From NCBI RefSeq assembly GCF_003287935.1, contig NZ_CP030287.1:1860001-1924000 (forward strand): DNA of 64,000 nt, in the 5' to 3' direction. Below the pieces are notes generated by a model. It had not been told where the DNA came from. It saw only the letters and a program-made list of their open reading frames with translations, and did not search any database. The position numbers and the translations under genes were made by a program. This document shows positions 6,041-62,376 of this stretch, piece after piece (position 1 is the first letter of the stretch; every line of letters starts with the position of its first letter). Source of the stretch: Streptomyces sp. ICC1. Its GTDB lineage: Bacteria; Actinomycetota; Actinomycetes; Streptomycetales; Streptomycetaceae.

Positions 6041-7021
6041 CTACCGCGCGAGCCCCTGGAGGACCGCCGCCCGGCACTGGGCCGGCGTGCCCCAGGCGTC
6101 GCGCAGCGGGCGGGCCTTGCGCAGCCACAGCGAGAGGTCGAGCTCCTCGGTGTAGCCGACGGCGCCGTGCAGCTGGAGGGCCGTCATGGCCGCCGCGTAC
6201 GCCGCCTCGCCCGCGGTCAGCTTCGCCGCCGCGACCTCCTCGGGGGCGAGGGAGAGGGCGGCCGCCCACAGCAGCGGCCGGGCGAACTCCAGGCCGAGCA
6301 GGGTGTCGGCGAGCCGGTGCTTGACCGCCTGGAAGCCGCCGATCGCGGTGCCGAACTGAGTGCGCTGCTTGGCGTACTCCACCGTGCGGGCGAGCAGGGC
6401 CTCGCCGGTGCCCAGGCACTGGGCCGCCGTCAGCAGCCGTGCCCAGTCTCCGGCGGCGGCGGCCGCCGCGGTGACGTGCGGGCCGGCCGCCAGGAGTTCG
6501 CCGCCGCCCTCCGGGAGGCAGAGGCGCCGGGCGGGGTCGGTGGAGGCCAGGAGCGGGCCGGGGCCGGCCAGGCGCAGTTCCCCGGCCGGCGACACGGTGA
6601 ACAGGTGCGTCGCCGCGTCCGCGTCCAGCGCGTACGGTCCCGCGCCCGGGAGGGTCAGCGTGGCCGAGGTCTCCCCCGCCGCGAGGCCGGGCAGGAACCG
6701 CTTGGCGAGGGCCTCGTCCCCGAGCCGTGAGAGGAGGACGGCGGCGGCGGCCGTCTCCACCGCCGGGCCCGGCACTCCGGCGCGGCCCAGCTCCACGAAG
6801 CCGAGCGACAGTTCCAGCGGGAGCGGGCCCACCCCGTCGTACGCCTCGTCGACGGCGAGGGCGAACAGGCTGGTCCCGGCGAGCCGTGTCCACAGGGCCC
6901 GGCCGGGGGCGTGGTCGCCCGCGCCCCAGGCCCGTACGGCCGCCGGGACGTCCGAGGCGCCGAGCAGGCCGTGCAGGCTGCGGGCGAAGTCCGACTGTTC
7001 TTCGGTCGGCAGGAAGCGCAT
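6041..7021 (-). CDS. Acyl-CoA dehydrogenase, beta-type half (FadE32/33-like by size and place)
   Basis: The 326-residue protein has the acyl-CoA dehydrogenase N-terminal, middle and C-terminal helical domains. It is short and ends soon after GYTEELDLSLWLRKARPL, lacking the terminal GTNEIQR motif that contributes to FAD binding. That fits one half of a heteromeric (alpha2-beta2) dehydrogenase of the kind used in actinobacterial sterol breakdown, where neighbouring genes supply complementary halves. It overlaps the preceding alpha-type gene by one base (TGATG), so equal production through translational coupling is likely. Which ring fragment it oxidises is inferred from context only. FadE32 and FadE33 of M. 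tuberculosis have similar lengths. Confidence 0.8.
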   Translation of the reverse strand: MRFLPTEEQSDFARSLHGLLGASDVPAAVRAWGAGDHAPGRALWTRLAGTSLFALAVDEAYDGVGPLPLELSLGFVELGRAGVPGPAVETAAAAVLLSRLGDEALAKRFLPGLAAGETSATLTLPGAGPYALDADAATHLFTVSPAGELRLAGPGPLLASTDPARRLCLPEGGGELLAAGPHVTAAAAAAGDWARLLTAAQCLGTGEALLARTVEYAKQRTQFGTAIGGFQAVKHRLADTLLGLEFARPLLWAAALSLAPEEVAAAKLTAGEAAYAAAMTALQLHGAVGYTEELDLSLWLRKARPLRDAWGTPAQCRAAVLQGLAR

Positions 7022-8166
7022 CAGCGGCGGCCCTTCGGGAGGCCGAGCAGCCGCTCGGCGATGATGTCGCGCTGGATCTCGTTGGTCCCCGCGTAGATGG
7101 GTCCGGCCAGCGAGAAGACCCAGGGTTCGGCCCACGCGCCGTCGGCGAGCTCCGCGTGCGGGCCGAGCAGGTCCAGGGCGGTCTCGTGCAGGGCGATGTC
7201 GTACTGGGACCAGAAGACCTTGTTGAGGCTGGACTCGGCGCCGATGGTCTCTCCGGCGGCGAACCGGGAGGCGTTGGCCCAGGTGAACAGCTGGTAGGCG
7301 CGGGCGCCGACCACGGCGTCCGCGACCCGGTCGCCGAGCGCGGTGTCCGCCGGGTCGCCGGTGCTGCGCCAGAGCCCGACGAGGCGGTCGGCGGCGGCGA
7401 GGAAGCGGCCGGGGGCGCGCAGGGTGAGCCCGCGCTCGTTGCCGGTGGTCGACATGGCGATCCGCCAGCCCTGGCCGGGCTCGCCGATCACGTCCGCGTC
7501 CGGTACGAAGACCTCGTCGAGGAAGAGCTCCGCGAAGGCGGGCTTGCCGTCGAGCCGGCCGATGGGCCGCACGGTGACGCCGGGGGCGCGCAGGTCGAAC
7601 ATCAGGTACGTGAGCCCCTGGTGCGGTTTCGGGGCGTCCGGGTCGGTGCGGAAGATGCCGAAGGCGCGGTCGGCGAAGGCGGCCCGGGAGGACCAGGTCT
7701 TCTGTCCGGACAGCAGCCAGCCGCCCTCGGTGCGCACGGCCCGGGACTTCAGGGAGGCGAGGTCGGAGCCGGATTCCGGCTCGGACCAGGCCTGGGCCCA
7801 GATCGTCTCCCCGCTCGCCATGGAGGGCAGGACGCGGGCGCGCTGTTCGTCCGTGGCGTGGTCGAAGAGGGTGGGGGCGAGGAGGTTGATGCCGTTCTGG
7901 GAGACCCGGCCGGGGGCGCCGGCGGCCCAGTACTCCTCCTCGAAGACCAGCCAGTGCTCGATGCCGGCGCCGCGGCCGCCGTACTCCTCGGGCCAGGAGA
8001 CCACCGACCAGCGGTGGGCGTGCAGGAGGGCCTCCCAGTCCCGGTGGGCGGCGAATCCCTCCGCGGTTTCCAGGGAGAGCAGGGGGGAGGCGGGGACGTG
8101 GGCGGCCAGCCAGGCGCGCGCTTCGGCGCGGAAGGCCTGGACGTCCGGCGCGTGGTTCAGGTCCAT
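7021..8166 (-). CDS. Acyl-CoA dehydrogenase, alpha-type half
   Basis: The 381-residue protein is full length for the family, with WAQAWSEPESGSDLAS in the flavin/substrate region and the terminal IYAGTNEIQRDIIAERLLG motif. It pairs by context with the beta-type half encoded immediately downstream (1-base TGATG overlap). It also overlaps the stop of the upstream hydratase gene in the same TGATG fashion, so the three form one tightly coupled operon. The reaction is FAD-dependent alpha-beta desaturation of a CoA thioester, electrons going to ETF. By place and size it could be the counterpart of FadE31; this is inference. Confidence 0.82.
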   Translation of the reverse strand: MDLNHAPDVQAFRAEARAWLAAHVPASPLLSLETAEGFAAHRDWEALLHAHRWSVVSWPEEYGGRGAGIEHWLVFEEEYWAAGAPGRVSQNGINLLAPTLFDHATDEQRARVLPSMASGETIWAQAWSEPESGSDLASLKSRAVRTEGGWLLSGQKTWSSRAAFADRAFGIFRTDPDAPKPHQGLTYLMFDLRAPGVTVRPIGRLDGKPAFAELFLDEVFVPDADVIGEPGQGWRIAMSTTGNERGLTLRAPGRFLAAADRLVGLWRSTGDPADTALGDRVADAVVGARAYQLFTWANASRFAAGETIGAESSLNKVFWSQYDIALHETALDLLGPHAELADGAWAEPWVFSLAGPIYAGTNEIQRDIIAERLLGLPKGRR

Positions 8167-9020
8167 CAGCTGTTCGCCTCCTTCATGGCGGCTATGTTCA
8201 TGCCGCCGAGCGAGTCCGCGGCCGTCTCGGCGTTGTGGGCGTGCGCGAGGTGGTGCAGGCCGAAGACGGAGTCCATGCCCGAGTGCAGGCCCTGGAGGTC
8301 CTCGGCCTGGTTGACCGCCCGCTTGGTGAGGGCGAGGCCGAAGCTCGGCATCTCGGCGATCCGCAGGGCGAGGCGGTCGGTCTCCCGCGCCAGTTCGGCC
8401 CGTGCGACGACGCGGTTGACCATGCCGATCTCGTACGCGCGCCGGGCGGACATCCGGTCGCCGGTGTACAGGAACTCCTTCGCGATGCGCGGGGGCATCG
8501 CCCACGGGTGCGCGAAGTACTCGACGCCCGGGATGCCCATGCGGACGACGGGGTCCGCGAAGAAGGCGTCCTCGCCCGCCACGATGAGGTCGCAGACCCA
8601 GGCGAGCATCAGGCCGCCGGCCACGCACGCGCCGTGGACGGAGGCGATGACGGGTTTGGGCAGCTCGCGCCAGCGGCGGCACATGCCGAGGTAGACCTCG
8701 GATTCGCGGGCGAAGCGGGATTCGGCGCCGGGGCGCCGCGAGTGGTCCCACCACAGGCCGGCGCGGCGTTCGAAGGGCAGGTGCGCGTCGCGGTCCGGGG
8801 TGCCGATGTCGTGGCCCGCCGAGAAGTGCTCGCCGGCGCCGGCCAGGACCACGACCTTGACCTCCGGGTCGTCGGCGGCCCGGTAGAAGGCGTCGTCGAG
8901 CGCGTAGGTCATGGCGCTGTTCTGCGCGTTGCGGTAGCGGGGGCGGTTCATGGTCACGTACGCCACCGGGCCGCGGCGCTCGTAGAGCACCGGCGTCTCG
9001 GGGTCGGGGGCAGCGGGCAT
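8166..9020 (-). CDS. Enoyl-CoA hydratase/isomerase family protein
   Basis: The 284-residue crotonase-fold protein has the oxyanion-hole segments AGEHFSAGHDIG and ASVHGACVAGGL. The usual second catalytic Glu region reads VVRMGIPGVEYF, so the exact chemistry (hydration, isomerisation or hydrolysis) cannot be assigned. It is the first gene of a three-gene operon with two acyl-CoA dehydrogenases. The start at 9020 has AAGGAAG five bases before the ATG; the open frame extends to 9071 but would run into the operator. It is divergent from the fadE30-like gene, and the palindrome between them probably controls both. It does not look closely like mycobacterial EchA20, the hydrolase of the same regulon. 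Confidence 0.8.
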   Translation of the reverse strand: MPAAPDPETPVLYERRGPVAYVTMNRPRYRNAQNSAMTYALDDAFYRAADDPEVKVVVLAGAGEHFSAGHDIGTPDRDAHLPFERRAGLWWDHSRRPGAESRFARESEVYLGMCRRWRELPKPVIASVHGACVAGGLMLAWVCDLIVAGEDAFFADPVVRMGIPGVEYFAHPWAMPPRIAKEFLYTGDRMSARRAYEIGMVNRVVARAELARETDRLALRIAEMPSFGLALTKRAVNQAEDLQGLHSGMDSVFGLHHLAHAHNAETAADSLGGMNIAAMKEANS

Positions 9021-9064
9021 CCGGCTTCCTTCGCTCACGGAGCTTCCGTCCTTCACAAACTTCC

Positions 9065-9082
9065 CTAACAAGTGTTTGGTAG
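9065..9082. promoter_or_regulatory. KstR2-like operator between divergent operons
   Basis: The core AACAAGTGTTTGGT (9067-9080) differs at one position from the published KstR2 consensus AnCAAGnnCTTGnT and lies in the larger imperfect palindrome CTAACAAGTGTTTGGTAG. It sits 17 bases before the fadE30-like start and about 45 bases before the hydratase start. A kstR2-like gene is the third gene of the rightward operon, so autoregulation is expected. Lifting of repression by a CoA-thioester ligand is known for KstR2. Confidence 0.75.
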
Positions 9083-9096
9083 GTTAACGTACGGCC

Positions 9097-10245
9097 ATGA
9101 GCAGCGTCGAGGAGTTCCGCACCGAGGTTCGGAGTTGGCTACGGGCCCACCTCACCGGCGGGTTCGCCGACCTCAAGGGCCGCGGCGGACCCGGCCGCGA
9201 GCACGAGGCCTTCGACGAACGCCTCGCCTGGGAGCGGCACATGGCGGCCCACGGCTGGACCTGCGTCGGCTGGCCCGTCGAATACGGCGGCCGCGGCGCG
9301 AGCACCGGGCAGCAGATCGCCTTCCACGAGGAGTACGCCCTCGCCGACGCGCCCGCGCGCGTGAACCACATCGGCGAGCAGCTCCTCGGCCCCACCCTCA
9401 TCGCCCACGGCACCGAGGAGCAGCGGCGGCGCTTCCTGCCGCCCATCCGGGCCGTGGAGGAACTGTGGTGCCAGGGCTACAGCGAGCCCGGCGCCGGCTC
9501 CGACCTGGCGGGGGTCCGCACCCGGGCCGCCCTGGTGGACGGCGTGTGGGTGGTGGACGGCCAGAAGATCTGGACCTCGCTGGCCCATCAGTCGCAGTGG
9601 TGCTTCGTCCTGGCCCGCACCTCGCCCGGCTCACGGCGCCACGCGGGACTGTCCTACCTCCTGGTCCCGATGGACCAGGAGGGCGTGGAGGTCCGGCCGA
9701 TCACCCAGCTGACGGGCACCTGCGAGTTCAACGAGGTCTTCTTCGACGGGGCCCGCACCGACGCCGCCCACCTCGTGGGTGCCCCCGGCGAGGGCTGGGC
9801 CGTAGCCATGGCCACCCTCGGCTTCGAGCGCGGCGTCTCCACCCTCGGCCAGCAGGTCGGCTTCCGCCGCGAGCTGGAGAACCTGGCCGAACTGGCCCGC
9901 GGCAACGGCGCGATGGCCGATCCGCTGATCCGCGACCGGCTCGTCCGGGCCTGGATCGGCCTGGAGACCATGCGCGCCGGCGCCCTGCGGCCCGGCGCGG
10001 CCCCGTCGGCCGCCAAGCTGTACTGGGCCCGCTGGCACCGGGACCTGGGCGAACTGGCCATGGACGTGTGCGGCGCCGCCTCGCTCGTCGCCGCCGGCGC
10101 GCACGGGGACCCGTACGACCTCGACGACTGGCAGCGGCTCTTCCTCTTCTCCCGCTCCGACACCATCTACGCGGGCTCGGACGAGATCCAGCGCAACATC
10201 CTCGCCGAGCGCATCCTCGGCCTTCCCAAGGAGGTACGGGCGTGA
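9097..10245 (+). CDS. fadE30: Acyl-CoA dehydrogenase, FadE30-like
   Basis: The 382-residue protein matches remembered M. tuberculosis FadE30 in long stretches, for example GGPGREHEAF, ELWCQGYSEPGAGSDLA, WTSLAHQSQWCFVLART, RGVSTLGQQ and DEIQRNILAERILGLP. FadE30 desaturates the CoA ester of the C/D-ring propionate intermediate (HIP-CoA branch) of cholesterol. The C-terminal FAD-binding motif is complete. No good ribosome site precedes ATG 9097, and the operator ends only 17 bases upstream, so the message may have a very short leader. Its stop overlaps the following ipdF-like start by four bases (GTGA). Confidence 0.88.
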   Translation: MSSVEEFRTEVRSWLRAHLTGGFADLKGRGGPGREHEAFDERLAWERHMAAHGWTCVGWPVEYGGRGASTGQQIAFHEEYALADAPARVNHIGEQLLGPTLIAHGTEEQRRRFLPPIRAVEELWCQGYSEPGAGSDLAGVRTRAALVDGVWVVDGQKIWTSLAHQSQWCFVLARTSPGSRRHAGLSYLLVPMDQEGVEVRPITQLTGTCEFNEVFFDGARTDAAHLVGAPGEGWAVAMATLGFERGVSTLGQQVGFRRELENLAELARGNGAMADPLIRDRLVRAWIGLETMRAGALRPGAAPSAAKLYWARWHRDLGELAMDVCGAASLVAAGAHGDPYDLDDWQRLFLFSRSDTIYAGSDEIQRNILAERILGLPKEVRA

Positions 10246-11027
10246 ACGCACCCGAGTACGTGTCCGGGCACGGGCTGCTGGCGGGCCGGACGGCCGTCAT
10301 CACCGCCGCCGCCGGAGCCGGCATCGGCGGGGCCACCGCACGGCGGTTCCTGGAGGAGGGCGCCCGCGTGATCGTCAGCGACGCCCACGCCCGGCGCCTG
10401 AAGGAGAGCGAGGACGCGCTGGCCGCGGAGTTCGGCGCGGACCGCGTCGCCTCCCTGCCCTGCGACGTCACCGACGAGGAGCAGGTCCAAGCGCTGTTCG
10501 CGCTCGCCGAACAGACGCACGGCGGCCTCGACATCGTCGTCAACAACGCGGGCCTCGGCGGGACGGCGAACCTCGTCGACATGACCGACGACCAGTGGTC
10601 GCGGGTCCTGGACGTGACCTTGAACGGCACCTTCCGCTGCACCCGCGCCGCGATGCGCTCCCTGCGGGCCGCCGGCACCGGGCGCGGGGTCATCGTCAAC
10701 AACGCCTCCGTCGTCGGCTGGCGCGCCCAGACCGGGCAGGCCCACTACGCCGCCGCCAAGGCCGGGGTGATGGCGCTGACCCGCTGCGCGGCGCTGGAGG
10801 CTGCGGAGTTCGGCGTACGGATCAACGCGGTCGCCCCGAGCCTGGCCATGCACCCGCACCTGGTGAAGGTCACCAGCGAGGAGCTGCTCGCCGAGCTCAC
10901 CGCCCGGGAGGCCTTCGGGCGGTACGCCGAACCGTGGGAGGTCGCCAACGTCATCGTCTTCCTGGCCAGCGGCTACTCGTCGTACATGACGGGCGAGACC
11001 GTGTCGGTCAGCAGTCAGCGCGCCTAG
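10242..11027 (+). CDS. ipdF: Short-chain dehydrogenase, IpdF-like
   Basis: The 261-residue SDR starts at GTG 10242, overlapping the dehydrogenase stop. The nucleotide-binding loop is modified (TAAAGAGIGGATARR), the active site reads NNAS...YAAAK, and the NNAG motif is present. The segments GWRAQTGQAHYAAAKAGVMALTRC and SGYSSYMTGE resemble remembered mycobacterial IpdF, which oxidises the 5-hydroxy group of the C/D-ring indane-propionyl-CoA intermediate. Gene order fadE30-ipdF-kstR2-fadA6 is the same as in M. tuberculosis (there split by a PPE gene), which strengthens the assignment. Confidence 0.87.
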   Translation: MNAPEYVSGHGLLAGRTAVITAAAGAGIGGATARRFLEEGARVIVSDAHARRLKESEDALAAEFGADRVASLPCDVTDEEQVQALFALAEQTHGGLDIVVNNAGLGGTANLVDMTDDQWSRVLDVTLNGTFRCTRAAMRSLRAAGTGRGVIVNNASVVGWRAQTGQAHYAAAKAGVMALTRCAALEAAEFGVRINAVAPSLAMHPHLVKVTSEELLAELTAREAFGRYAEPWEVANVIVFLASGYSSYMTGETVSVSSQRA

Positions 11028-11076
11028 CGGAAGCCGTGCCGACCGGACCCGGCTCCCGCTGGCCCAGAATGGGCGC

Positions 11077-11703
11077 GTGCCAACGAACAAGCCGACAGCC
11101 AAGAAGAAGCCCCAGGTGACGGCGTCGCCCGAACGCCGCCGCGAACTCCTCGACACCGCCGCCGAGGTCTTCGCCGCGCAGGGCTACAACGCCACCACCG
11201 TCCGCAAGATCGCCGATGCCGCCGGGATGCTCGCCGGCAGCCTCTACTACCACTTCGATTCCAAGGAATCGATGCTCGACGAGATCCTCTCCGCCTTCCT
11301 GAACGAGCTGTGGGAGGGGTACGACACCGTCCTCGCCGCCGGTCTCGGACCCCGGCAGACCATCGAGGCCCTCGTCACCGAATCGTTCCGGGAGATCGAC
11401 CGGCACCGCGCCGCCGTCGCGATCTACCAGAAGGAATCCCGGCACCTCTCCGCCCAGCCCCGCTTCCACTACCTCTCCGACTCGCAGGTCAAGTTCGAGA
11501 AGGCGTGGCTGGGGACGCTGGAGCGCGGGGTCGCCGCCGAGGTCTTCCGCGCCGACCTGGACATTCGCCTCACCTACCGCTTCGTGCGCGACACGGTGTG
11601 GGTGGCGGCGTCCTGGTACCGGCCGGGCGGCCAGCACAGTCCCGAGGAGATCGCCCGCCAGTACCTGTCGATGGTGCTGGACGGCATCGCCACACGCACG
11701 TAA
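11077..11703 (+). CDS. kstR2: TetR-family repressor, KstR2-like
   Basis: The 208-residue protein has an N-terminal helix-turn-helix around residues 20-65 (AAEVFAAQGYNATTVRKIAD and AGSLYYHFDSKESML). The ligand domain ends VWVAASWYRPGGQHSPEEIARQYL, close to remembered KstR2 (YRFIRDTTWVSVRWYRPGG). Known KstR2 represses the lower sterol-degradation pathway until a HIP-CoA-type ligand binds. GTG 11077 is used; a Lys-rich leader (TAKKKPQ) precedes the HTH. It is cotranscribed with its presumed targets and the palindrome at 9065-9082 is its likely site. No second operator is visible in the 49-bp gap before this gene. Confidence 0.88.
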   Translation: MPTNKPTAKKKPQVTASPERRRELLDTAAEVFAAQGYNATTVRKIADAAGMLAGSLYYHFDSKESMLDEILSAFLNELWEGYDTVLAAGLGPRQTIEALVTESFREIDRHRAAVAIYQKESRHLSAQPRFHYLSDSQVKFEKAWLGTLERGVAAEVFRADLDIRLTYRFVRDTVWVAASWYRPGGQHSPEEIARQYLSMVLDGIATRT

Positions 11704-11728
11704 CCCCGCATACCCCTGAGGAGTTCTG

Positions 11729-12886
11729 ATGCCCGAGGCCTACATAGTCGAAGCGGTGCGCACCCCGGTGGGCCGGCGCAAGGGGGGCCTGTCCGAGGTC
11801 CACCCGGCCGACCTGGGGGCGCACGTCCTCAAGGCCCTCGTCGAACGGTCCGGGATCGACCCGGCGGCCGTCGAGGACGTGGTGTTCGGCTGCCTCGACA
11901 CGGTGGGGCCGCAGGCGGGCGACATCGCGCGCACGGCCTGGCTGGCGGCGGGGCTCCCCGAGGAGGTCCCGGGCGTCACCATCGACCGGCAGTGCGGATC
12001 GTCGCAGCAGGCGGTGCACTTCGCGGCCCAGGGCGTCATGTCCGGAACGCAGGACCTGGTGGTCGCGGGCGGCACCCAGAACATGTCGATGATCCCGATC
12101 GCCTTCGCCTCGCGGCAGGCGGCGGAGCCGCTGGGCTTCACCGAAGGCCCGTACCTGGGGTCGGCGGGGTGGCGGGCACGGTACGGGGACTCCCCGATCA
12201 ACCAGTTCCACGGCGCCCAGCTGATCGCGGAGAAGTGGGGCATCTCGCGGGAGGACATGGAGCGCTTCGCCCTGCGCTCCCACCAGCGGGCGCTGCGGGC
12301 GATCGACGAGGGGCGCTTCGAGCGGGAGATCGTGCCGTACGGCGGGGTATCGGTCGACGAGGGCCCGCGCCGCGACACCACGTTGGAGAGGATGGCGGGT
12401 CTGAAGCCGGTCATGGAGGGCGGCACGATCACGGCGGCGGTCTCCTCCCAGGTCTCGGACGGGGCGGCGGCGATGCTGCTGGCCTCCGAGCGGGCGGTAC
12501 GGGAACACGGCCTGCGCCCGCGCGCCCGCATCCACCACCTGTCGGTCCGCGGCGAGGACCCGATCCGCATGCTGTCCGCGCCGATCCCGGCGACGGCCTA
12601 CGCCCTGAAGAAGACCGGCATGTCCCTCTCGGACATCGACCTGGTCGAGATCAACGAGGCCTTCGCCCCGGTGGCCCTGGCCTGGCTGAAGGAGACCGGC
12701 GCGGACCCGGAGCGGGTCAACGTCAACGGCGGCGCGATCGCCCTGGGCCACCCCCTGGGCGCGACGGGCGTCAAGCTGATGACGACGCTCCTGCACGAAC
12801 TGGAGCGCACGGGAGGCCGCTTCGGCCTCCAGACCATGTGCGAGGGCGGCGGCCAGGCCAACGTCACCATCATCGAGCGGCTCTAG
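11729..12886 (+). CDS. fadA6: Thiolase, FadA6-like acetyl-CoA C-acyltransferase
   Basis: The 385-residue thiolase has all catalytic parts: nucleophile Cys89 (DRQCGSSQQA), His near 341 (GGAIALGHPLGATG) and the second Cys near 371 (MCEGGG). Long identities with remembered M. tuberculosis FadA6 include PEEVPGVTIDRQCGSSQQA and AEKW...REDMER. FadA6 performs thiolytic cleavage in C/D-ring degradation of cholesterol. GAGGAG lies six bases before the ATG. It is the last gene of the rightward operon, 25 bases after kstR2, and is followed by a hairpin. Confidence 0.9.
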   Translation: MPEAYIVEAVRTPVGRRKGGLSEVHPADLGAHVLKALVERSGIDPAAVEDVVFGCLDTVGPQAGDIARTAWLAAGLPEEVPGVTIDRQCGSSQQAVHFAAQGVMSGTQDLVVAGGTQNMSMIPIAFASRQAAEPLGFTEGPYLGSAGWRARYGDSPINQFHGAQLIAEKWGISREDMERFALRSHQRALRAIDEGRFEREIVPYGGVSVDEGPRRDTTLERMAGLKPVMEGGTITAAVSSQVSDGAAAMLLASERAVREHGLRPRARIHHLSVRGEDPIRMLSAPIPATAYALKKTGMSLSDIDLVEINEAFAPVALAWLKETGADPERVNVNGGAIALGHPLGATGVKLMTTLLHELERTGGRFGLQTMCEGGGQANVTIIERL

Positions 12887-15099: not shown

Positions 15100-16230
15100 T
15101 CAGCCCTCCAGCGCGCGGAAGTGCGGGATGACGTGCTCGCCCCACTGGCGGATGGTCTCCATGCACGCCTCCTGCGGAACGGTGCCCATCTGGATCAGGC
15201 ACATGACCTCGTCGACGCCGATCTCGCGCAGCCGCTCGACGTAGGCGATGGCGGTCCCGGCGTTTCCGTAGGCATGTTCGGCGTTGTAGGTGCCGGTGTC
15301 CACGGGTCGGGCCGGGATGTTCGCCTCGTGCAGTGTGGCGACGAGCTCCTCGCGGCCGCGCTCCAGGGCGGCCACGTGGTCCTCGGCGCTCTCCTCCTCG
15401 GAGTAGCCGGTGGGCGCGGGGGCGTTGCCGTACCAGTGCGCGATGGACTCGGCGAAGAAGCGCTGGCCGCGGGTGCCCAGGCGCAGGGCGCGCTCCGCGT
15501 CGTCGAGGACGATGGTCGGGCAGAGGGCGGAGAGGTGGTCGTTGACCTCGGTGGAGACGAAGCGGTCGCCGGTGCGGGTGGCGATGGCCTCGTCGTACAC
15601 CTTGCGCATCGCGCGGACGTCGTCGGCGCCGGCGAAGCCCATCACCAGTGCCCCGATGCCCAGTTCGGCGGCGAGCTTGAGGGTGTCGTGCTTGGAGCAG
15701 GCCATGAAGAGCGGCGGGTGGGGGCCCTGGACCGGGCGGGGCAGGATCGCGCCGGGTCCGATGTCGATGGAGCCGTGCCACTCGAACCGCTCCTCGCGCC
15801 AGGCCGAGGAGAAGATCCGCAGCGCCTCTTCCATCTGCGGGTAGGTGTCCTCGGGCCGGACCCCGTACATGGACATCTCCTGGCGGGTGGCCCCGCGCCC
15901 GGCGCCGATGTCGACGCGGCCCCCGGAGAGCACGTCGAGCATGGCGGCGCGTTCGGCGACGCGCACGGGGTGCTGGTAGCCGAAGGGCATGGTCACGACG
16001 CCGTGGCCGATGCGGATCCTCCGGGTGCGGGCGGCGACCCAGGTCAGGAAGATCTCGGAGGCGCTCATGTGGGCGTACTGGGTGAGGGCATGGTGCTCGA
16101 CGGCCCAGATCCGGTCGAAGCCCATCTCCTCGGCGAACACGGCCTGTTCGACGCAGTCGTGGATGACCTGGCGTTCGCGTTCGGGGGTCGGGTCGACGAG
16201 CTGGGCCTCGAAGATCATCGAGAACTTCAT
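15100..16230 (-). CDS. Luciferase-like flavin-dependent monooxygenase/oxidoreductase
   Basis: The 376-residue TIM-barrel protein of the bacterial luciferase family begins MKFSMIFEAQLVD and carries EHHALTQYAHMSA, RIRIGHGVVTMPFGY and LSGGRVDIGAGRG. Members use FMNH2 or F420H2 to oxygenate or reduce small organic molecules. GGGAGG lies just upstream of the ATG. It is the first gene of a three-gene operon, and the flavin reductase encoded about 600 bases beyond padR could supply reduced flavin. A palindrome 45 bases upstream is probably a repressor site. Confidence 0.85.
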   Translation of the reverse strand: MKFSMIFEAQLVDPTPERERQVIHDCVEQAVFAEEMGFDRIWAVEHHALTQYAHMSASEIFLTWVAARTRRIRIGHGVVTMPFGYQHPVRVAERAAMLDVLSGGRVDIGAGRGATRQEMSMYGVRPEDTYPQMEEALRIFSSAWREERFEWHGSIDIGPGAILPRPVQGPHPPLFMACSKHDTLKLAAELGIGALVMGFAGADDVRAMRKVYDEAIATRTGDRFVSTEVNDHLSALCPTIVLDDAERALRLGTRGQRFFAESIAHWYGNAPAPTGYSEEESAEDHVAALERGREELVATLHEANIPARPVDTGTYNAEHAYGNAGTAIAYVERLREIGVDEVMCLIQMGTVPQEACMETIRQWGEHVIPHFRALEG

Positions 16231-16274
16231 GGGGAACCTCCCAGCCGTGCACCGGGCACGGCACGTGAACGATG

Positions 16275-16291
16275 TATTTCGATTAGGAATA
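16275..16291. promoter_or_regulatory. Putative PadR operator upstream of monooxygenase operon and padR
   Basis: The imperfect palindrome TATTTCGATTAGGAATA (read on the minus strand it starts TATTCCTA) lies between the leftward monooxygenase operon and the rightward padR gene. The same TATTCCTA half-site occurs in the better palindrome on the other side of padR at 17493-17509. Confidence 0.5.
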
Positions 16292-16355
16292 CTTCTAGCA
16301 GTCATACTTCACCGGGGGAAGAGTCACCGCGAAGACCGGTCGTAGACTGCGCTGC

Positions 16356-17030
16356 GTGGCGAACCAGGCGGCAGACGAGACGAACAAGCGCACGCTCCCG
16401 GCAACCAGCTGGGCTGTGCTCGGGCTGCTCTCCTTCGGAGAGGAGCTCTCCGGCTACGACCTGAAGAAGTGGTCGGACTGGTCGCTGCGCTTCTTCTACT
16501 GGAGCCCGTCCTTCAGCCAGATCTACAGCGAGCTCAAGCGGCTGGAGAAGGCCGGCTACGCCTCCTCGCGGATGGTCGCCCAGGAGACCGGCACCCGCGA
16601 CAAGCGCGTGTACCGGATCACCGGCGAGGGCATGGCGGCCGTACGGGAATGGGCGCGCGAGGCGCCCGTCGACCCGCCGGTGCTCAAGCACGGGCCGATG
16701 CTGCGGCTATGGCTGGGCCACCTGCTGGAGCCGGAGCAGATGCGCGAAGTCCTCGTACAGCACCAGGAGTTCGCGGAGAAGATGCGCCGGCGCGCGGTGG
16801 CCGACGCGGACGGGGCCAAGGACGAGGCCTCGTGGGCGTACCCGACGCTCACCCTGAAGTGGGCGGAGCGCTACTACGCCTCCGAGCGCGACCTCGCCGC
16901 CGCCATGCTCGACGACATCGAGGCGCTGGCGGCGGGCCGGAACCCGGGCGGCGCCGGGACCGGCGGACCGGGCACGGCGGGGAAGCCCGACGGGGCGGGG
17001 AAGTCCGGCGCGGCCGGCAAGCGCCCGTAG
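16356..17030 (+). CDS. PadR-family transcriptional regulator
   Basis: The 224-residue protein has the winged helix of PadR proteins near residues 15-90 (WAVLGLLSFGEELSGYDLKK, SQIYSELKRLEKAGYA, VYRITGEG). It continues into a helical C-terminal domain (about 100-190) typical of the long PadR subfamily. The last ~30 residues are a Gly/Ala/Lys-rich tail and are antisense to the 3' end of the flavin-reductase gene. Start is GTG 16356. PadR proteins usually repress neighbouring catabolic genes; related palindromes lie in both flanking promoter regions. Confidence 0.85.
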   Translation: MANQAADETNKRTLPATSWAVLGLLSFGEELSGYDLKKWSDWSLRFFYWSPSFSQIYSELKRLEKAGYASSRMVAQETGTRDKRVYRITGEGMAAVREWAREAPVDPPVLKHGPMLRLWLGHLLEPEQMREVLVQHQEFAEKMRRRAVADADGAKDEASWAYPTLTLKWAERYYASERDLAAAMLDDIEALAAGRNPGGAGTGGPGTAGKPDGAGKSGAAGKRP

Positions 17031-17476
17031 GCGCGCCGGAAGTAGAGCAGCGGAGCGCCTTCGCGGTGCGCCGCCAGGGCGGTGACCCGGCCGAGCGCGA
17101 TGGCGTGGTCGCCGCCGTCCAGGACGGCCTCCAGATCGCACGCGACGGAGGCGAGCACCCCGTCCAGGAGGGGCGCGCCGTTGCCGCCCGCGCGCCAGGC
17201 GACGCCGGCGAACTTGTCGCCCCCGGTGACGGCGAACCGGCGGCACAGGTCCTGCTGGTCGGCGGCGAGGATGTTGACGGCGAAGGCGCCGGCGGCCTGG
17301 ATCCTCGGCCAGGTGGTGGACGTACGGGCCGGGCAGAAGCAGACCAGCGGCGGGTCCAGCGAAACGGACGAGAAGGACTGCACGGCCATCCCGACGGGAC
17401 GGCCGTCGGCTTCGCGTGCCGTGATGACGGCGACCCCGGTGCAGAAGCTGGACAGGACCGACTTCATGTCGGACAT
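16874..17476 (-). CDS. Flavin reductase, HsaB-like
   Basis: The 200-residue protein belongs to the flavin-reductase-like split-barrel family. The segments SFCTGVAVIT, QSFSSVSLDPPLV, DKFAGVAW and DGGDHAI are close to remembered HsaB, which supplies reduced flavin to the sterol-ring hydroxylase HsaA. No HsaA is in the window, so the partner may be the luciferase-like enzyme at 15100. The ATG at 17476 has GGGGAGG upstream. The gene runs 157 bases into the 3' end of padR on the other strand, and its last ~45 residues are Pro/Ala/Ser-rich. Confidence 0.83.
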   Translation of the reverse strand: MSDMKSVLSSFCTGVAVITAREADGRPVGMAVQSFSSVSLDPPLVCFCPARTSTTWPRIQAAGAFAVNILAADQQDLCRRFAVTGGDKFAGVAWRAGGNGAPLLDGVLASVACDLEAVLDGGDHAIALGRVTALAAHREGAPLLYFRRAYGRLPAAPDFPAPSGFPAVPGPPVPAPPGFRPAASASMSSSMAAARSRSEA

Positions 17477-17573: not shown

Positions 17574-19262
17574 ATGCCACCACCGCCCCCGCAGCAGCCG
17601 CCGTGGCCACAGCAGGCGCAGCCGCAGCCGCCCGCCACGCTCGCCCGGCTCCCCGACCACGCCGCCGCGGCGCACGGGGAGCTCGAGGCGCTCGCCGACG
17701 GCGAGGTCCGCTGGACCTTCGCCCGGCTCGCCGCCGAGATCCACCGGGCCGCCCGCGCCGCGATCGCCCACGGCGTCCGGCCCGGCGACCGGGTCGCGAT
17801 CTGGGCCCCCAACAGCCGCCGGTGGATCACCGCCGCCCTCGGCGCGGTGGGCGTCGGAGCCGTCCTCGTCCCGGTCAACACCCGCTACAAGCCCGCCGAG
17901 GCGGCGGACGTCATCCGGCGCAGCGGCGCCCGCGCGCTCTTCACCGAGCGCGGCTTCCTCGGCACCGACTACGCCCGCGCGCTGCACGCCTCCGGCGAGG
18001 ACCTGGGGGTACTCGCCTCCACCGTGATCCTGCGCGGCGAAGGAGGCGAAGAGGGTGAAGGAGGCGAAGGAGGTGAAGGGGGTGAAGGCCCAGGCGGCGG
18101 CGCCGCCACGACCGCCGCCACCCTCGGCTGGGAGGCGTACCTGCGGGCCGGCGAGTCCGTCACCGAGGAGGAGCGGGCCGCGCGCGCGGCCGCCGTACGC
18201 CCCGGGGACCTCTGCGACATCCTCTACACCTCCGGCACCACCGGCCGTTCCAAGGGCGTCATGACCACCCACGGCCAGACCGTCCGGCTCTACGCCTCCT
18301 GGTCCGGCCTCGTCGGCCTGCGCGCCGGCGACCGGTACCTGCTGGTCAACCCCTTCTTCCACACCTTCGGCTACAAGGCCGGCGTGCTCGCCTGCCTGCT
18401 GCGCGGGGCCACCATGCTCCCCGAGGCCGTCTACGACGCCGACCGCGTCCTCGCGCGCATGGCCGCCGAGCGCGTCACCTGCCTGATGGGGCCGCCCACC
18501 GTCTTCCACGGCCTGGTCCGCCACCCGCGCCGGACCTCGTACGACCTCTCCGCCCTGCGCCTGGCCGGCACCGGGGCCGCCTCCGTGCCCGCCTCCCTCG
18601 TCGAGGAGATCCGCACCGCACTGGGCGCGCCGGAGGTGTTCACCGCGTACGGGCTCACCGAATCCGGCGGGGTCGTCTCCGTCTGCCCCACCGACGCCGA
18701 CGCCCGGACCCTCGCCCACACCGTCGGACCGCCGCTGCCCGGCACCGAGGTGCGGATCGCCGACCCGCTCGGCGCGGTGCTGGCCGCCGGGGAGCCGGGC
18801 GAGGTGCAGGTCCGCGGCTACCACGTCACCCCCGGCTACCTGGACGACCCGGCGGCCACCGCCGAGGTGGTGCTGCCCGGCGGCTGGCTGCGCACCGGGG
18901 ACATCGGCGTCCTGGACGGGCGCGGCTACCTCGCCATCACCGACCGGCTGAAGGACATGTACGTGGTGGGCGGCTTCAACGCCTACCCCGCGGAGGTGGA
19001 GAACGTGCTGCTCACCCATCCCGCCATCACCGACGCCGCGGTCGTCGGGGCCCCCGACGAGCGGCTCGGCGAGGTCGGGGTGGCCTACGTCGTCACCACC
19101 GGGCCGGTCACCTCCGACGAGCTGACGGCCTGGTCCCGGGAGCGGCTGGCCAATTTCAAGGTGCCGCGGCGGTTCACCCGCCTGGCCGAGCTCCCGCGGG
19201 GCGTGGGCGGCAAGCTGCTGAAGACGGAGCTGCGCCGCGCGGCCCGGGGGGAGTCGGCGTGA
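17574..19262 (+). CDS. fadD3: Acyl-CoA ligase, FadD3-like
   Basis: The 562-residue ANL-superfamily ligase has the P-loop ILYTSGTTGRSKGV at 216-229, FFHTFGYKAGVLACLL, YGLTE, RLKDMYVVGGFNAYPAEVE, and a C-terminal Lys in GGKLLKTEL. Many segments match remembered M. tuberculosis FadD3 (DRVAIWSPN, GYKAGILACL, DRLKDMY), which activates HIP, the C/D-ring propionate of cholesterol, with CoA. A Gly/Glu-repeat insert at about 155-176 is unusual. AGGGAGGG precedes ATG 17574. It overlaps the downstream dehydrogenase by four bases (GTGA). Its promoter shows a PadR-type rather than KstR2-type palindrome. Confidence 0.84.
   Translation: MPPPPPQQPPWPQQAQPQPPATLARLPDHAAAAHGELEALADGEVRWTFARLAAEIHRAARAAIAHGVRPGDRVAIWAPNSRRWITAALGAVGVGAVLVPVNTRYKPAEAADVIRRSGARALFTERGFLGTDYARALHASGEDLGVLASTVILRGEGGEEGEGGEGGEGGEGPGGGAATTAATLGWEAYLRAGESVTEEERAARAAAVRPGDLCDILYTSGTTGRSKGVMTTHGQTVRLYASWSGLVGLRAGDRYLLVNPFFHTFGYKAGVLACLLRGATMLPEAVYDADRVLARMAAERVTCLMGPPTVFHGLVRHPRRTSYDLSALRLAGTGAASVPASLVEEIRTALGAPEVFTAYGLTESGGVVSVCPTDADARTLAHTVGPPLPGTEVRIADPLGAVLAAGEPGEVQVRGYHVTPGYLDDPAATAEVVLPGGWLRTGDIGVLDGRGYLAITDRLKDMYVVGGFNAYPAEVENVLLTHPAITDAAVVGAPDERLGEVGVAYVVTTGPVTSDELTAWSRERLANFKVPRRFTRLAELPRGVGGKLLKTELRRAARGESA
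18036..18088 (+). repeat. In-frame Gly/Glu-coding purine repeat inside fadD3-like gene
   Basis: Repeats of the form GGNGAAGGA run for about 53 bases and encode alternating Gly and Glu. The stretch is strongly purine-biased on the plus strand and interrupts an otherwise conserved ligase between the N-terminal subdomain and the P-loop. Copy number is likely to vary by slippage. Confidence 0.85.
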
Positions 19263-20440
19263 GGACACTGGCGCCCACCCCCGAGCAGGCGGAACTGCGG
19301 GACGCGGTACGGGCGGTGCTCGCCCGCCACCCCGGCCACGCGGCCTGGGCCCCGCTGACGGCCCAGGTGGGCGCGGCCGCGCTGGCGGTGCCCGAGGAGT
19401 ACGGCGGCCTGGGCTGCGGGGCCGCCGAAGTCGGGGTGGTCATGGCGGAGCTGGGGCGCGCGCTGAGCCCCGTACCGTATCTGGGCTCGGCGGTGCTGAC
19501 GGTGGGGGCGCTGCTGGCGGCCGGGGACCGGGAGGCGTGCGCGAGGCATCTGCCCGGGCTGGCGGAGGGGACGGCCGTGGGGGCGCTGGCCTGGGCGGAG
19601 GAGGGCGGGCGCCCCGACGGCGGGCCGGAGACGGGATCCGGTCCGGCCCCGGGCGCCCGGCGCGGCAGTTGGGAGGCCGGCGATCTGGCGGCCCGGGCGG
19701 AGCCGGCCGGGCCGGACTGGCTGCTCACGGGCGCCAAGCGGTACGTACTGACCGGCCCGAGCGAGCCGTCCCTGCTGCTGGCCTTCGCCACCCTCGCCAC
19801 CGCGACCGAGCCCGGCACCACCGCTGCCCCCACGCCCGGCACCGGGCCCGGCCAGGGCGGCGGCCGGCTGGGCCTGTTCGAACTCACCGCCCCGCCGACG
19901 GCCTTCACCGTACGGTCCACCATGGACCGGACCCGGCCGCTCGCGGAGCTGACCATGGACCGGACCCCGGCCCGGCTGCTCTCGTCCGACGGCGCCGGAG
20001 TCCTGGCCCGGGTCCGGGACCTGGCCTGCACCGCGCTCGCCGCCGAGCAGGCGGGGGCGGCGGCGCGGGCGCTGGAGGCGACGGTCCGGTACGCGAAGGA
20101 CCGGGTGCAGTTCGGACGGCCCATCGGCTCCTTCCAGGCGATCAAGCACCGGCTGGCCGACATGTACACCGCGGTGGAGAGCGCCCGCTCGCTCGCGCTC
20201 GCGGCGGCCGCCGCGGACGCGGCCCCGGCGCCGGCCGCCGCGGCCAAGTCGGCCTGTTCGGAGGCCTTCTCGTACGTGGCGGGCGAGATGATCCAGCTGC
20301 ACGGCGGGATCGGCATCACCTGGGAGCACGAGGCGCACGAGTTCTTCAAGCGCGCGCACGGCTCGGCGCAGCTCTTCGGCTCCCCGGCCGCGCACCGTGA
20401 ACGGCTGGCGGCCTTGCTCGGCCTGCTGTCGGCACGCTGA
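19259..20440 (+). CDS. Acyl-CoA dehydrogenase, beta-type
   Basis: The 393-residue acyl-CoA dehydrogenase starts at GTG 19259, coupled to the fadD3-like gene. The C-terminal domain is clear (YAKDRVQFGRPIGSFQAIKHRLAD and QLHGGIGITWEHEAHEFFKRA), but the terminal NEIQR-type motif is missing. The middle domain contains Pro/Gly/Thr-rich inserts (around residues 120-140 and 185-200). This looks like the beta half of a heteromeric dehydrogenase of the FadE27/FadE34 kind. No alpha partner is adjacent; the fadE26-like protein at 62377 or a gene outside the window could pair with it. Confidence 0.78.
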   Translation: MRTLAPTPEQAELRDAVRAVLARHPGHAAWAPLTAQVGAAALAVPEEYGGLGCGAAEVGVVMAELGRALSPVPYLGSAVLTVGALLAAGDREACARHLPGLAEGTAVGALAWAEEGGRPDGGPETGSGPAPGARRGSWEAGDLAARAEPAGPDWLLTGAKRYVLTGPSEPSLLLAFATLATATEPGTTAAPTPGTGPGQGGGRLGLFELTAPPTAFTVRSTMDRTRPLAELTMDRTPARLLSSDGAGVLARVRDLACTALAAEQAGAAARALEATVRYAKDRVQFGRPIGSFQAIKHRLADMYTAVESARSLALAAAAADAAPAPAAAAKSACSEAFSYVAGEMIQLHGGIGITWEHEAHEFFKRAHGSAQLFGSPAAHRERLAALLGLLSAR

Positions 20441-34233: not shown

Positions 34234-35409
34234 TCAGGAGGCCGGCGGCTCGGCCCCCACCAGCCACATCGCGAAGAACTGCGCGCCACCGCCGTACGCG
34301 TGTCCCATCGCCCGGCGCGCGTCCGGGACTTGGTGCTCCCCGGCCTGTCCGCGCACCTGGAGGGCCGCCTCCGCGAAGCGGATCATGCCGGAGGCGCCGA
34401 TCGGGTTGGTGGACAGCACGCCGCCGGAGGGGTTGACCGGGAGGTCGCCGTCGAGCTCGGTGACCCCGGCCTCGGTGAGCTTCCAGCCCTCGCCCTCCTC
34501 GGCGAAGCCGAGGTTCTCCAGCCACATCGGCTCGTACCAGGAGAACGGCACGTACATCTCCACCGCGTCGATCTCGCGGCGCGGATCGGTGATCCCGGCC
34601 TGCCGGTAGACGTCGGCCGCGCAGTCCTTGCCGGCCTGCGGGGAGACGAAGTCCTTGCCCGCGAAGAGCGTCGGCTCGCTGCGCATGGCCCCGCCGTGCA
34701 CCCAGGCCGGCGGCTTCGGCGAACGGGCCGCGCCCTCCCGGTCGGTGAGGATCATGGCGCACGCCCCGTCGGAGGAAGGGCAGGTCTCGGAGTAGCGGAT
34801 CGGGTCCCAGAGCATCGGGGAGGCCTGGACCTTCTCCAGGGTGATGTCGTGCTCGTGCAGGTGCGCGTAGGGGTTCTTCAGCGCGTTGCGGCGGTCCTTG
34901 TACGCGACGAGCGAGCCGACCGTGTCGGGGGCGCCGGTGCGCCGCATGTACGCGCGCACGTGGGGGGCGAAGAACCCGCCGGCCCCGGCCAGCAGCGGCT
35001 GCTGGAAGGGGACGGGCAGCGAGAGCCCCCACATGGCGTTGGACTCCGACTGCTTCTCGAAGGCCAGGGTCAGCACCGTGCGGTGAACGCGGGCGGCTAC
35101 CAGGTTGGAGGCGACCAGCGCCGTGGAGCCGCCCACCGAACCGGCCGTGTGCACACGGAGCATGGGCTTGCCGACGGCGCCGAGGGCGTCCGCCAGGTAC
35201 AGCTCCGGCATCATCACGCCCTCGAAGAAGTCGGGGGCCTTGCCGATGACGACCGCGTCGATGTCCGCCCAGGTCAGCTCGGCGTCCGCGAGCGCCCGCA
35301 CCGCGGCTTCCCGGACCAGCCCGGCGATGGAGACGTCGTGGCGGGCGGCCACGTGCTTGGTCTGCCCGATGCCGACGACGGCCACGGGCTCCTTGCCCGA
35401 TGCGCTCAT
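34234..35409 (-). CDS. Thiolase-fold lipid-transfer (Ltp3-like) protein, catalytic residues replaced
   Basis: The 391-residue SCP2-thiolase-fold protein resembles Ltp proteins of sterol side-chain catabolism. The place of the nucleophilic Cys reads HTAGSVGGST (Gly for Cys), and the HxP motif near the C-terminus reads STNPIGASG (Asn for His). It is therefore unlikely to be a condensing or thiolytic enzyme. Ltp2, a known relative, is a retro-aldolase that works with a DUF35 partner. Here a second Ltp-like protein and a DUF35 protein are encoded in the same coupled operon (ATGA overlap), in the Rv3521-ltp4-ltp3 arrangement of mycobacteria. Activity is inferred. Confidence 0.83.
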   Translation of the reverse strand: MSASGKEPVAVVGIGQTKHVAARHDVSIAGLVREAAVRALADAELTWADIDAVVIGKAPDFFEGVMMPELYLADALGAVGKPMLRVHTAGSVGGSTALVASNLVAARVHRTVLTLAFEKQSESNAMWGLSLPVPFQQPLLAGAGGFFAPHVRAYMRRTGAPDTVGSLVAYKDRRNALKNPYAHLHEHDITLEKVQASPMLWDPIRYSETCPSSDGACAMILTDREGAARSPKPPAWVHGGAMRSEPTLFAGKDFVSPQAGKDCAADVYRQAGITDPRREIDAVEMYVPFSWYEPMWLENLGFAEEGEGWKLTEAGVTELDGDLPVNPSGGVLSTNPIGASGMIRFAEAALQVRGQAGEHQVPDARRAMGHAYGGGAQFFAMWLVGAEPPAS

Positions 35410-36482
35410 GCTCGGTCCCCTTCCAGGACGGCGACCAGGTTCTGCTGGAGGCAGGGGCCGGAGGTGGCGTGCGCGACGGCCCGGTCGGACTCGCCCCGGT
35501 GGATGCGGGCGGCCGCTTCGCCGATCCGGATCAGGCCGGCGGCCATCATCGGATTGGCCGCGAGGGCGCCGCCGGACAGGTTGACGGACACGCCCTCGCC
35601 GAGCCCGAGGGCCTTGCGCAGCACGACCTCCTGGGAGGAGAACGGCGCATGCAGTTCGGCCGTGTCCACCGGGCCCTCGAAGACGCCCGCGTGCTCGGCG
35701 GCGATCCGCGTCGACGGGGAGTCGGTGAGGTCCCGCAGCCCGAGGCTGTGCGCCTCGATGCGGTGGTCGATGCCGGTGATCCAGGCGGGCCGCCCGCACA
35801 GCCGCCGCGCCACGTCCCCGGCGGCCAGGATGACGGCGGCCGCGCCGTCGCCTACGGGCGGGCAGTCACCGGTGCGCAGCGGGGCGACCTGGTAGTCGCC
35901 CTGCGGGACGGCGCCGGTGAGCTGGGCGTGCGGGTTGGCGCTCGCGGCGGCCCGGCTGCGGGCGCCGATCGCGGCGAGCCCGGCTTCGTCGGTCTCCCCC
36001 GCGTCGATGAGCGCCTGCGCCTGGAGGGCGGCCAGGGCCACCGCGTCGGGCCAGAGCGGAGCCAGGTAGTACGGGTCGAGCTGGCGCGTCAGGACGTCGC
36101 GTACGGATCCCGGGGAGGACTTCCCGTAGGAGTACACGAGCGCGGTGTCGGCCTCGCCGGTCTGGATCTTGACCCAGGCCTCGTACAGGGCCCAGGCGCC
36201 GTCCATCTCCACGTGCGATTCGGAGATCGGCGGCCAGGCGCCGACCCCGTCGAGGGTCATGGTGAAGGAGAAGGCCCGGCCGGCGAGGTAGTCGCTGGAG
36301 CCGGAGCAGGTGAAGCCGATCTCGCCGGCCTTCAGGCCGGTCTGGGCCAGCACCTGGTGCAGGACCGGCATGACCATCTCGACTTCGCTGAGCTCGTCGG
36401 TGCGGCGCAGGTGGTCGCTCTGCGCGAAGGCGATGACGGCCACCTCGCGCGCGTGGCGCCGCGTCCTCGGCGTGCCTGGCAT
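35406..36482 (-). CDS. Thiolase-fold lipid-transfer (Ltp4-like) protein, catalytic residues replaced
   Basis: The 358-residue protein is the second Ltp-like member. The Cys region reads ISESHVEMDGAWAL with no Cys, and the C-terminal motif reads SGGALAANPMMAAG with Asn for the thiolase His. It overlaps the DUF35 gene upstream by one base (TGATG) and the Ltp3-like gene downstream by four (ATGA), so a stoichiometric complex is likely. The N-terminus begins MPGTPRTRRHAREVAVIAFAQ, slightly extended compared with the fold. Confidence 0.83.
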   Translation of the reverse strand: MPGTPRTRRHAREVAVIAFAQSDHLRRTDELSEVEMVMPVLHQVLAQTGLKAGEIGFTCSGSSDYLAGRAFSFTMTLDGVGAWPPISESHVEMDGAWALYEAWVKIQTGEADTALVYSYGKSSPGSVRDVLTRQLDPYYLAPLWPDAVALAALQAQALIDAGETDEAGLAAIGARSRAAASANPHAQLTGAVPQGDYQVAPLRTGDCPPVGDGAAAVILAAGDVARRLCGRPAWITGIDHRIEAHSLGLRDLTDSPSTRIAAEHAGVFEGPVDTAELHAPFSSQEVVLRKALGLGEGVSVNLSGGALAANPMMAAGLIRIGEAAARIHRGESDRAVAHATSGPCLQQNLVAVLEGDRA

Positions 36483-37453: not shown

Positions 37454-37488
37454 GGGTGGGTCTCCGATGTCTGGGAGGCGGGGCCGAA

Positions 37489-37630: not shown

Positions 37631-37741
37631 TCCGGGGGCCGGCCCCCGGCAACGGCGCCGCACCCGCGACCGGACCGGCACCACGGGCACAGGCCCAAGC
37701 GCAGGCAGACGCAGGCAGACGCAAGCGGGGCGCCGCCCCCA

Positions 37742-38542: not shown

Positions 38543-38565
38543 TGCCGTCCTCCCGTCTCAAGACC

Positions 38566-38579: not shown

Positions 38580-38606
38580 GGAGGGGCGGGTGCAGTTCAA
38601 TAGTTT

Positions 38607-62340: not shown

Positions 62341-62344
62341 TAGG

Positions 62345-62370: not shown

Positions 62371-62376
62371 CTCCGC

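Follow-up and report, generated by a model that had tools for sequence, protein, structure and literature searches.

The DNA analysed here is a 64-kb stretch ('the window', G000:C1:1860001-1924000) of a Streptomyces genome, G000, which is a single contig of 9.03 Mb. Gene calling places two divergent arms at positions 6041-12886: fadE32-fadE31-crotonase on the minus strand and fadE30-ipdF-kstR2-fadA6 on the plus strand. The 76-bp gap between them (9021-9096) contains a predicted operator for KstR2, a TetR family repressor. We regard the whole as very probably a KstR2-controlled module for the degradation of steroid rings C and D (that is, of HIP, the product of ring A/B breakdown) in a Streptomyces that possesses the ring A/B genes also, and put the probability of this reading at about 0.86. 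The original prediction had recognized a Streptomyces-type KstR2 module with fadE30, ipdF, kstR2 and fadA6 in mycobacterial order, and this stands: the genes have one-to-one counterparts in the same order. It spoke of eight proteins, however, and there are seven genes:

6041..7021, minus strand: FadE32-like acyl-CoA dehydrogenase (small/beta type); 44% identical to the gene at the place of fadE32 in R. qingshengii and 45% to that in M. lepraemurium; 107.5 bits with the NCBIfam IpdE2 model, below the cut-off of 450
7021..8169, minus strand: FadE31-like acyl-CoA dehydrogenase; 63% identical to the gene at the place of fadE31 in R. qingshengii and 61% to that in M. lepraemurium
8166..9020, minus strand: crotonase of the rhodococcal KstR2 cluster, not EchA20; 71% identical to the R. 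qingshengii and 74% to the Kibdelosporangium gene between fadD3 and fadE31; PRK08290, 440 bits, above the cut-off of 280
9064..9083, no strand: predicted KstR2 operator CCTAACAAGTGTTTGGTAGG, a 20-bp palindrome with its core at 9067-9080
9097..10245, plus strand: FadE30-like acyl-CoA dehydrogenase; 64-67% identical to Rhodococcus, Mycobacterium and Kibdelosporangium FadE30 (64% R. qingshengii, 66% M. lepraemurium)
10242..11027, plus strand: IpdF-like short-chain dehydrogenase; 67% R. qingshengii, 64% M. lepraemurium; PRK07831, 449.8 bits, above the cut-off of 336
11077..11703, plus strand: KstR2, TetR family repressor; 56% R. qingshengii, 47% M. lepraemurium; PDB 2ibd 230 bits, 4w97 191 bits
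11729..12886, plus strand: FadA6-like thiolase; 68% R. qingshengii, 65% M. lepraemurium; PRK07801, 714 bits, above the cut-off of 591

Reference genes were taken from the clusters of R. qingshengii (L025) and M. lepraemurium (L086), whose gene order is also that of the module, and the best window match of each was sought. The reference genes thus served as queries against the window; the reverse comparison is covered by the labelled comparisons of fetched loci alone. The structures closest to the repressor are 2ibd (entry title 'possible transcriptional regulator'), which we take to be the KstR2 of Rhodococcus RHA1, and M. tuberculosis KstR2 (4w97), at the scores given above, and the next different protein follows at 77 bits. 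The repressor keeps the motif RDTxW, within which lie Arg162 and Trp166, residues from the literature on M. tuberculosis KstR2 and HIP-CoA that agree with the chain numbering. The fourteen genes of the KstR2 regulon as tabulated in the available part of PMC5380842 (Table 1) all have a counterpart in the window or elsewhere in G000. Among them are ipdA, ipdB, ipdC, echA20, ipdF, fadA6, fadE30-33 and fadD3, not all of which lie in the window, and the assignments of FadD3, FadE32 and FadE33 are weaker than the others.

The opposite arm had been described as an alpha/beta acyl-CoA dehydrogenase pair with a crotonase not clearly EchA20, and taken as a sign that the lower pathway might differ. The pair is indeed present, but by sequence and position it is FadE31/FadE32, and the arm is the rhodococcal fadE31/32 arm plus a crotonase; echA20-ipdABC lies just left of the window, and the suggestion of a divergent lower pathway is not supported. 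(An assignment of the arm to a FadE17/FadE18/EchA13-type paralogous operon was rejected, synteny and identity pointing to FadE31/32.) The doubt about EchA20 was well placed: the crotonase is only 33% identical to the EchA20 of G000, which is encoded outside the window with ipdABC, and since EchA20 is present there the crotonase is an addition rather than its replacement. Rhodococcus and Kibdelosporangium have counterparts, 71-74% identical, that lie between fadD3 and fadE31. In the R. qingshengii arm (fadD3-crotonase-fadE31-fadE32-fadE33) the same crotonase, 71% identical, directly precedes fadE31, but fadD3 and fadE33 in the window are not part of the arm and lie 4.7 kb beyond fadA6. In the M. 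lepraemurium cluster fadE31 adjoins fadD3 with no crotonase between, and another mycobacterial locus (L065) ends short of that stretch. Judging by its sequence and setting, the crotonase is a probable enoyl-CoA hydratase of the last round of beta-oxidation. A similar role, the final hydration of an enoyl-CoA in the breakdown of rings C and D, is given in the available text of PMC7807495 to echA13/scdN, an enoyl-CoA hydratase gene of the KstR2 regulon of Nocardioides simplex.

The published KstR2 motif is AnCAAGnnCTTGnT, described from three promoter regions together with band-shifts (Kendall 2010, PMC3068626, in the part available). The core at 9067-9080, AACAAGTGTTTGGT, differs from it by one base, much as the original prediction's 'near-consensus' site implied, and is the sole match with at most one mismatch in the window. 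The whole genome contains 174 such matches in 9.03 Mb, and 162 to the pattern read backwards, so that one per given 76-bp gap is expected some 0.0015 times; as a means of finding the regulon, this generic motif was set aside on the same counts. A second predicted operator, a nearly identical palindrome with two mismatches to AnCAAGnnCTTGnT, is situated at the echA20 promoter, left of the window. Both thus occupy the divergent promoters where they are expected, fadE30//opposite arm and echA20//Rv3549c. An extended Streptomyces form, CCTAACAARYGTTTGGTRG, which was written after the two sites had been seen, matches with up to two mismatches only these sites in the 9.03 Mb and one more at three; reversed, it has no match in G000 at these levels.

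The same core is found at the fadE30 or ipdF promoter of all seven Streptomyces loci inspected besides the window; three more (L118, L119 and L137) differ from it by a single base. For comparison we took KstR2 loci from named genomes (the best 80 among the matches listed) and labelled their genes by synteny, with Table 1 in the available part of PMC5380842 as the guide. The recognition helix is ILSGSLYHHF in 78 of these 80; a perfect AnCAAGnnCTTGnT occurs somewhere in 71 of the 78 loci, and the Streptomyces form in none. The other two, both Streptomyces, have [IM]LAGSLYYHF together with the Streptomyces form, AACAARyGTTTGGT, and no published motif. A further 38 Streptomyces stretches, several of which share a genome and all cut with 1.5-kb flanks, yielded no perfect AnCAAGnnCTTGnT and 19 exact Streptomyces forms. 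Among the other 19, three are one base off, 12 come from genomes with FadE30, where the promoter lies beyond the flank, one comes from G037 with its remnant of FadE30, and the last three are stretches around second copies of KstR2. Kitasatospora, a genus of the same family as Streptomyces, is instructive: K. arboriphila has the rhodococcal helix and the rhodococcal site, which argues that the site goes with the helix. In Streptomyces, then, an operator of the form AACAARyGTTTGGT goes with the recognition helix LAGSLYYHF, a pairing that sets the genus apart from the 78 loci taken from outside it, and the name 'Streptomyces-type' is apt. From the sequences, this looks like one evolutionary change and not many, repressor and site having changed together, once.

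The remainder of the pathway, and with it much that goes beyond the original prediction, lies elsewhere in the window and the chromosome:

17574..19262, plus strand: FadD3-like acyl-CoA ligase, candidate HIP-CoA synthetase; 44-48% to FadD3 (44% R. qingshengii, 46% M. lepraemurium); FadD3-family model 650.1 bits, just below the cut-off of 657
19262..20440, plus strand: FadE33/IpdE2-like acyl-CoA dehydrogenase, directly 3' of the FadD3-like gene; 42% identical to FadE33 of R. qingshengii; 242.6 bits with the IpdE2 model, below the cut-off of 450
G000:C1:1854208-1859468, divergent: Rv3548c/Rv3549c-like genes // echA20-ipdA-ipdB-ipdC (stretch L139)
G000:C1:1849351-1853281, strand not given: kshA-hsaF-hsaG-hsaE-like genes (L139)
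G000 ~7.227-7.232 Mb, strand not given: hsaA-D-C-B-kstD-like genes, 3' of an IclR-like gene (L155)

The echA20-ipdABC operon is 0.5-4 kb left of the window, behind the second operator. Of the ring A/B products, HsaA (609.9 bits, cut-off 450), HsaD (444.4, cut-off 400), the aldolase and the acetaldehyde dehydrogenase exceed their NCBIfam cut-offs. KshA was named from the motif of its Rieske-type sequence and from its place; in G082, G102 and G161, HsaC and KshA likewise have other hsa-type genes as near neighbours. With ring A/B genes present, G000 is predicted to be a full steroid degrader. These genes are within 40 kb of the module in G082, and in G000 their two spots, at 1.849 and 7.227 Mb, are nearly mirror-placed on the chromosome, which suggests that an inversion across the replication origin split them. 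Two other candidates were discarded: a FabK-like gene at 50827-51933 is not IpdC (29-42% identity to IpdC; the true IpdC is G000:C1:1858368-1859468), and kshB was not cut by the split, as it aligns over residues 23-370 of 372.

Homology and the papers cited suggest how such a module would operate. KstR2, from the third gene of the right-hand operon, would repress both divergent operons from the single palindrome at 9064-9083, and the echA20-ipdABC // Rv3549c-Rv3548c-like pair from the second, almost identical one. HIP from the breakdown of rings A and B would be converted to HIP-CoA by the FadD3-like ligase, and HIP-CoA is expected to release KstR2. IpdF and FadE30 would begin the removal of the propionate side-chain, IpdF/IpdC, EchA20 and IpdAB would open rings D and C, FadA6 would cleave, and FadE31/32 and the crotonase would finish beta-oxidation. 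As far as the available parts of PMC3068626 and PMC5380842 go, the KstR2 regulon of Rhodococcus jostii RHA1 and M. tuberculosis has the same gene set, the same divergent operon pairs under a TetR repressor, and operators in the same places, fadE30//opposite arm and echA20//Rv3549c. Streptomyces differ in having two operators instead of three, with none before kstR2, which sits in the fadE30 operon; in the changed half-site (AACAARyGTTTGGT) and helix (LAGSLYYHF, not LSGSLYHHF); and in fadD3-fadE33 having moved away, with no site. The likeness of the genes, their order, the operators and the conservation of these operators are plain, and the module of the window is a well-supported variant member of a known system. 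Our literature search found no description of a Streptomyces KstR2 module or operator, including in the portions available of PMC4810484, PMC5380842, PMC5790920, PMC9782250, PMC3388012, PMC7807495 and PMC3068626; its coverage of subscription journals was thin, and no paper on the structure of KstR2 was among those listed.

How widespread the module is was gauged in 199 genomes, taken as Streptomyces from named protein matches, with cut-offs of our own choosing and presence lists transcribed by hand from the search results; these lists underlie the nesting and co-occurrence counts given below. KstR2 is found in 142 (E 1e-40), IpdA in 136 (E 1e-60) and KshA in 18 (E 1e-60). FadE30 at 77% identity or more is found in 30, within 3 kb of kstR2 in all but G022, where it is 56 kb away; for FadE30 and for its paralogue FadE30b, discussed below, at most nine candidates per genome were scored. 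HsaC matches occur in 47 genomes at E 1e-20, and in 17 at 45% identity or more and at least 265 bits; G107, G123, G009 and G021 have HsaC-like proteins of 45-46% identity but fewer than 226 bits, and are outside the 17. The sets are nested: the 17 with HsaC fall within the 30 with FadE30 (and within the 18 with KshA), the 30 within the 136 with IpdA, and the 136 within the 142 with KstR2. In G051, G052 and G071 the KstR2 matches are weak. G180 has KshA without FadE30. It follows that 106 of the 199 have KstR2 and IpdA without this FadE30, which makes the FadE30-less, or trimmed, form the prevailing one in the genus. Bergstrand et al. (2016, PMC4810484) reported 55 of 57 Streptomyces genomes to be without the 9,10-seco steroid pathway, and the genus is there counted as mostly without steroid degradation. 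This rarity matches our ring A/B counts for KshA and HsaC, yet KstR2 and IpdA are common; the available portions of the paper make no mention of C/D-ring genes in the other Streptomyces.

Four trimmed loci were read (G056, G109, G048 and S. olivoverticillatus). They keep fadE32-fadE31, ipdF-kstR2-fadA6 and ipdCBA-echA20, and FadE30, FadD3 and FadE33 are missing beside the module. One of the four has retained the crotonase; Rv3548c-like genes occur in G056, G109 and G048, and Rv3549c-like genes in G109 and G048. The two operators persist in G056, G109 and G048, and S. olivoverticillatus has two Streptomyces-form sites. Ratios of nonsynonymous to synonymous change (dN/dS) of 0.10-0.32 in 24 pairwise comparisons—five module genes in up to four genomes, G000 and three trimmed—are signs of purifying selection on the module genes in those three. 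The input of the trimmed module is probably other than whole sterols. About 0.8 kb before kstR2, G037 has a FadE30 remnant (G037:C1:5697768-5698400) that is interrupted by a TAG and shows 83% identity across the last 210 residues, possibly a recent loss of FadE30. Second KstR2 copies occur in G161 (L161), with no module genes around, and in G102 (L158), directly after an hsaB-like gene.

Genomes with the trimmed module tend to have another locus as well. FadE30b is encoded in G000 at G000:C1:3128024 and is 56% identical to the FadE30 of the window and 52% to that of M. lepraemurium. Around it (G000:C1:3123187-3144748; L171 and L172) are genes for a Zn-dehydrogenase, an Rv3548c-like short-chain dehydrogenase and a PF04199 cyclase; those for a CoA ligase, for a PF04909 amidohydrolase and for two paired acyl-CoA dehydrogenases follow 8-13 kb further on. 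The locus also includes an HsaB-like flavin reductase gene. A similar locus, apart from the module, is present in five trimmed genomes read (six with G000), the amidohydrolase being called in four of the five; FadE30b there is 50-56% identical to M. lepraemurium FadE30 (one gene call is a fragment). No KstR2-type site was found in the seven stretches of FadE30b locus read, and hence no sign of shared regulation with the module. FadE30b occurs in 102 of the 106 IpdA-bearing genomes without FadE30 (absent from G031, G080, G098 and G182), in 10 of the 30 with FadE30, and in 4 of the 63 without IpdA (G001, G078, G143 and G167).

To allow for kinship we used a midpoint-rooted tree of rpoB alone, its optimiser stopped at 40 steps, for 100 of the 199 genomes. 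It holds 54 of the 63 that lack IpdA, 17 of the 30 that have FadE30 and 29 of the 106 with IpdA but no FadE30. G000 was left out. Over the 83 tips without FadE30, dependent evolution of IpdA and FadE30b is favoured over independent evolution with a likelihood ratio of 80.3 (67.3 for an earlier FadE30b list). Of nearest pairs in which one member has IpdA and the other does not there are 25, and FadE30b is present in 24 of the members with IpdA and in two of those without, G143 and G167; these two carry KstR2, so IpdA may have been missed there. IpdA changes 25 times on the tree (shuffled mean 33.3, lowest 26) and FadE30b, by the earlier list, 24 times (mean 27.0, lowest 22). Such numbers speak for many separate gains or losses and are also a sign of how poorly one gene resolves the genus; because they lie near the shuffled means, the tree corrects only weakly for kinship.

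What, then, can be said against these readings? Several facts sit uneasily with a complete, KstR2-controlled steroid pathway in G000. FadE32, FadE33/IpdE2, HsaC (349.5 bits, cut-off 450), KstD (646.2, cut-off 788) and FadD3 score below their own NCBIfam cut-offs, and HsaE below three; KshA, KshB and HsaB are assigned to no family at E 1e-60; the ring A/B genes stand partly at 1.85 and partly at 7.23 Mb; neither operator is an exact copy of the published AnCAAGnnCTTGnT, one being a single base off and the other two; and there is no KstR2-type site upstream of the FadD3-FadE33-like pair. Such sub-threshold scores could be those of non-sterol paralogues, from an operon for ordinary fatty acids or branched-chain acyl-CoAs with an unrelated TetR protein as its regulator. 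This we consider extremely improbable, and refuted as far as sequence can refute it: the genes have ordered, one-to-one counterparts in the KstR2 clusters of Rhodococcus, Kibdelosporangium and Mycobacterium, the repressor's 191-230 bits stand far above the 77 of the next protein, and KstR2 accompanies IpdA in each of the 136 genomes.

If the module of G000 is a steroid C/D-ring module, that of most Streptomyces need not be used for sterols, and its trimmed form might serve in either of two ways. It may scavenge HIP, or later C/D-ring intermediates, leaked by other steroid degraders of the soil, with FadE30b replacing FadE30 at the side-chain step; we place this somewhat short of even odds. The enzymes and operators are those of the full module, the nesting of HsaC, FadE30, IpdA and KstR2 and the FadE30 remnant of G037 are consistent with it, and FadE30b resembles M. 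lepraemurium FadE30 and is rare in genomes without IpdA. However, the four trimmed modules read have no FadD3 or FadE33 beside them either, and HIP breakdown does not call for the cyclase and amidohydrolase of the FadE30b locus. The second proposal, which we offer tentatively and would sooner expect to fail than to hold, is that the core (FadE31/32, IpdF, FadA6, IpdABC and EchA20) remains under KstR2 but has been uncoupled from the ring A/B genes, FadD3 and FadE30, and degrades a bicyclic or alicyclic carboxylic acid of soil (e.g. a hydrindane or terpenoid acid). The co-evolved but unlinked FadE30b locus would prepare and feed in its CoA ester, and the module of G000 would handle both inputs. 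The co-occurrence counts, the tree test, the nearest pairs, the low dN/dS and the operators kept in trimmed loci all favour it. But no KstR2-type site accompanies FadE30b, the single-gene tree corrects weakly for kinship, and a shared niche could yield the same co-occurrence; moreover, the published effector of KstR2 is HIP-CoA, and HIP from other degraders would require no new substrate. A literature search on the degradation of hydrindanes and coronafacic acid found nothing useful. Whichever applies, a C/D-ring set without ring A/B genes is common in the genus, with its operators kept in the loci read, and poses a question of substrate in tractable bacteria for which FadE30b provides a partner locus. 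The trimmed form and this partner are the more interesting part of our findings, more so than the module of the window itself.

Other genes of the window may bear on related chemistry. Between the module and fadD3, at 15100-17476, are genes for a luciferase-like monooxygenase, for a possible regulator and for a flavin reductase resembling HsaB (192 bits against a cut-off of 230); close copies of the monooxygenase and possible regulator occur in G161, on another contig, near the KstR2 copy without module genes. At 34234-40354 lie genes that by sequence resemble a sterol side-chain cluster: two of lipid-transfer/thiolase type (PRK08313 and PRK07937), an unassigned one, and those for an acyl-CoA synthetase (PRK07798) and for a crotonase like EchA19, which scores 370.5 bits against a cut-off of 400. 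Finally, a P450 and an acyl-CoA dehydrogenase at 60885-63567 could take part in the breakdown of side-chains or of terpenoids.

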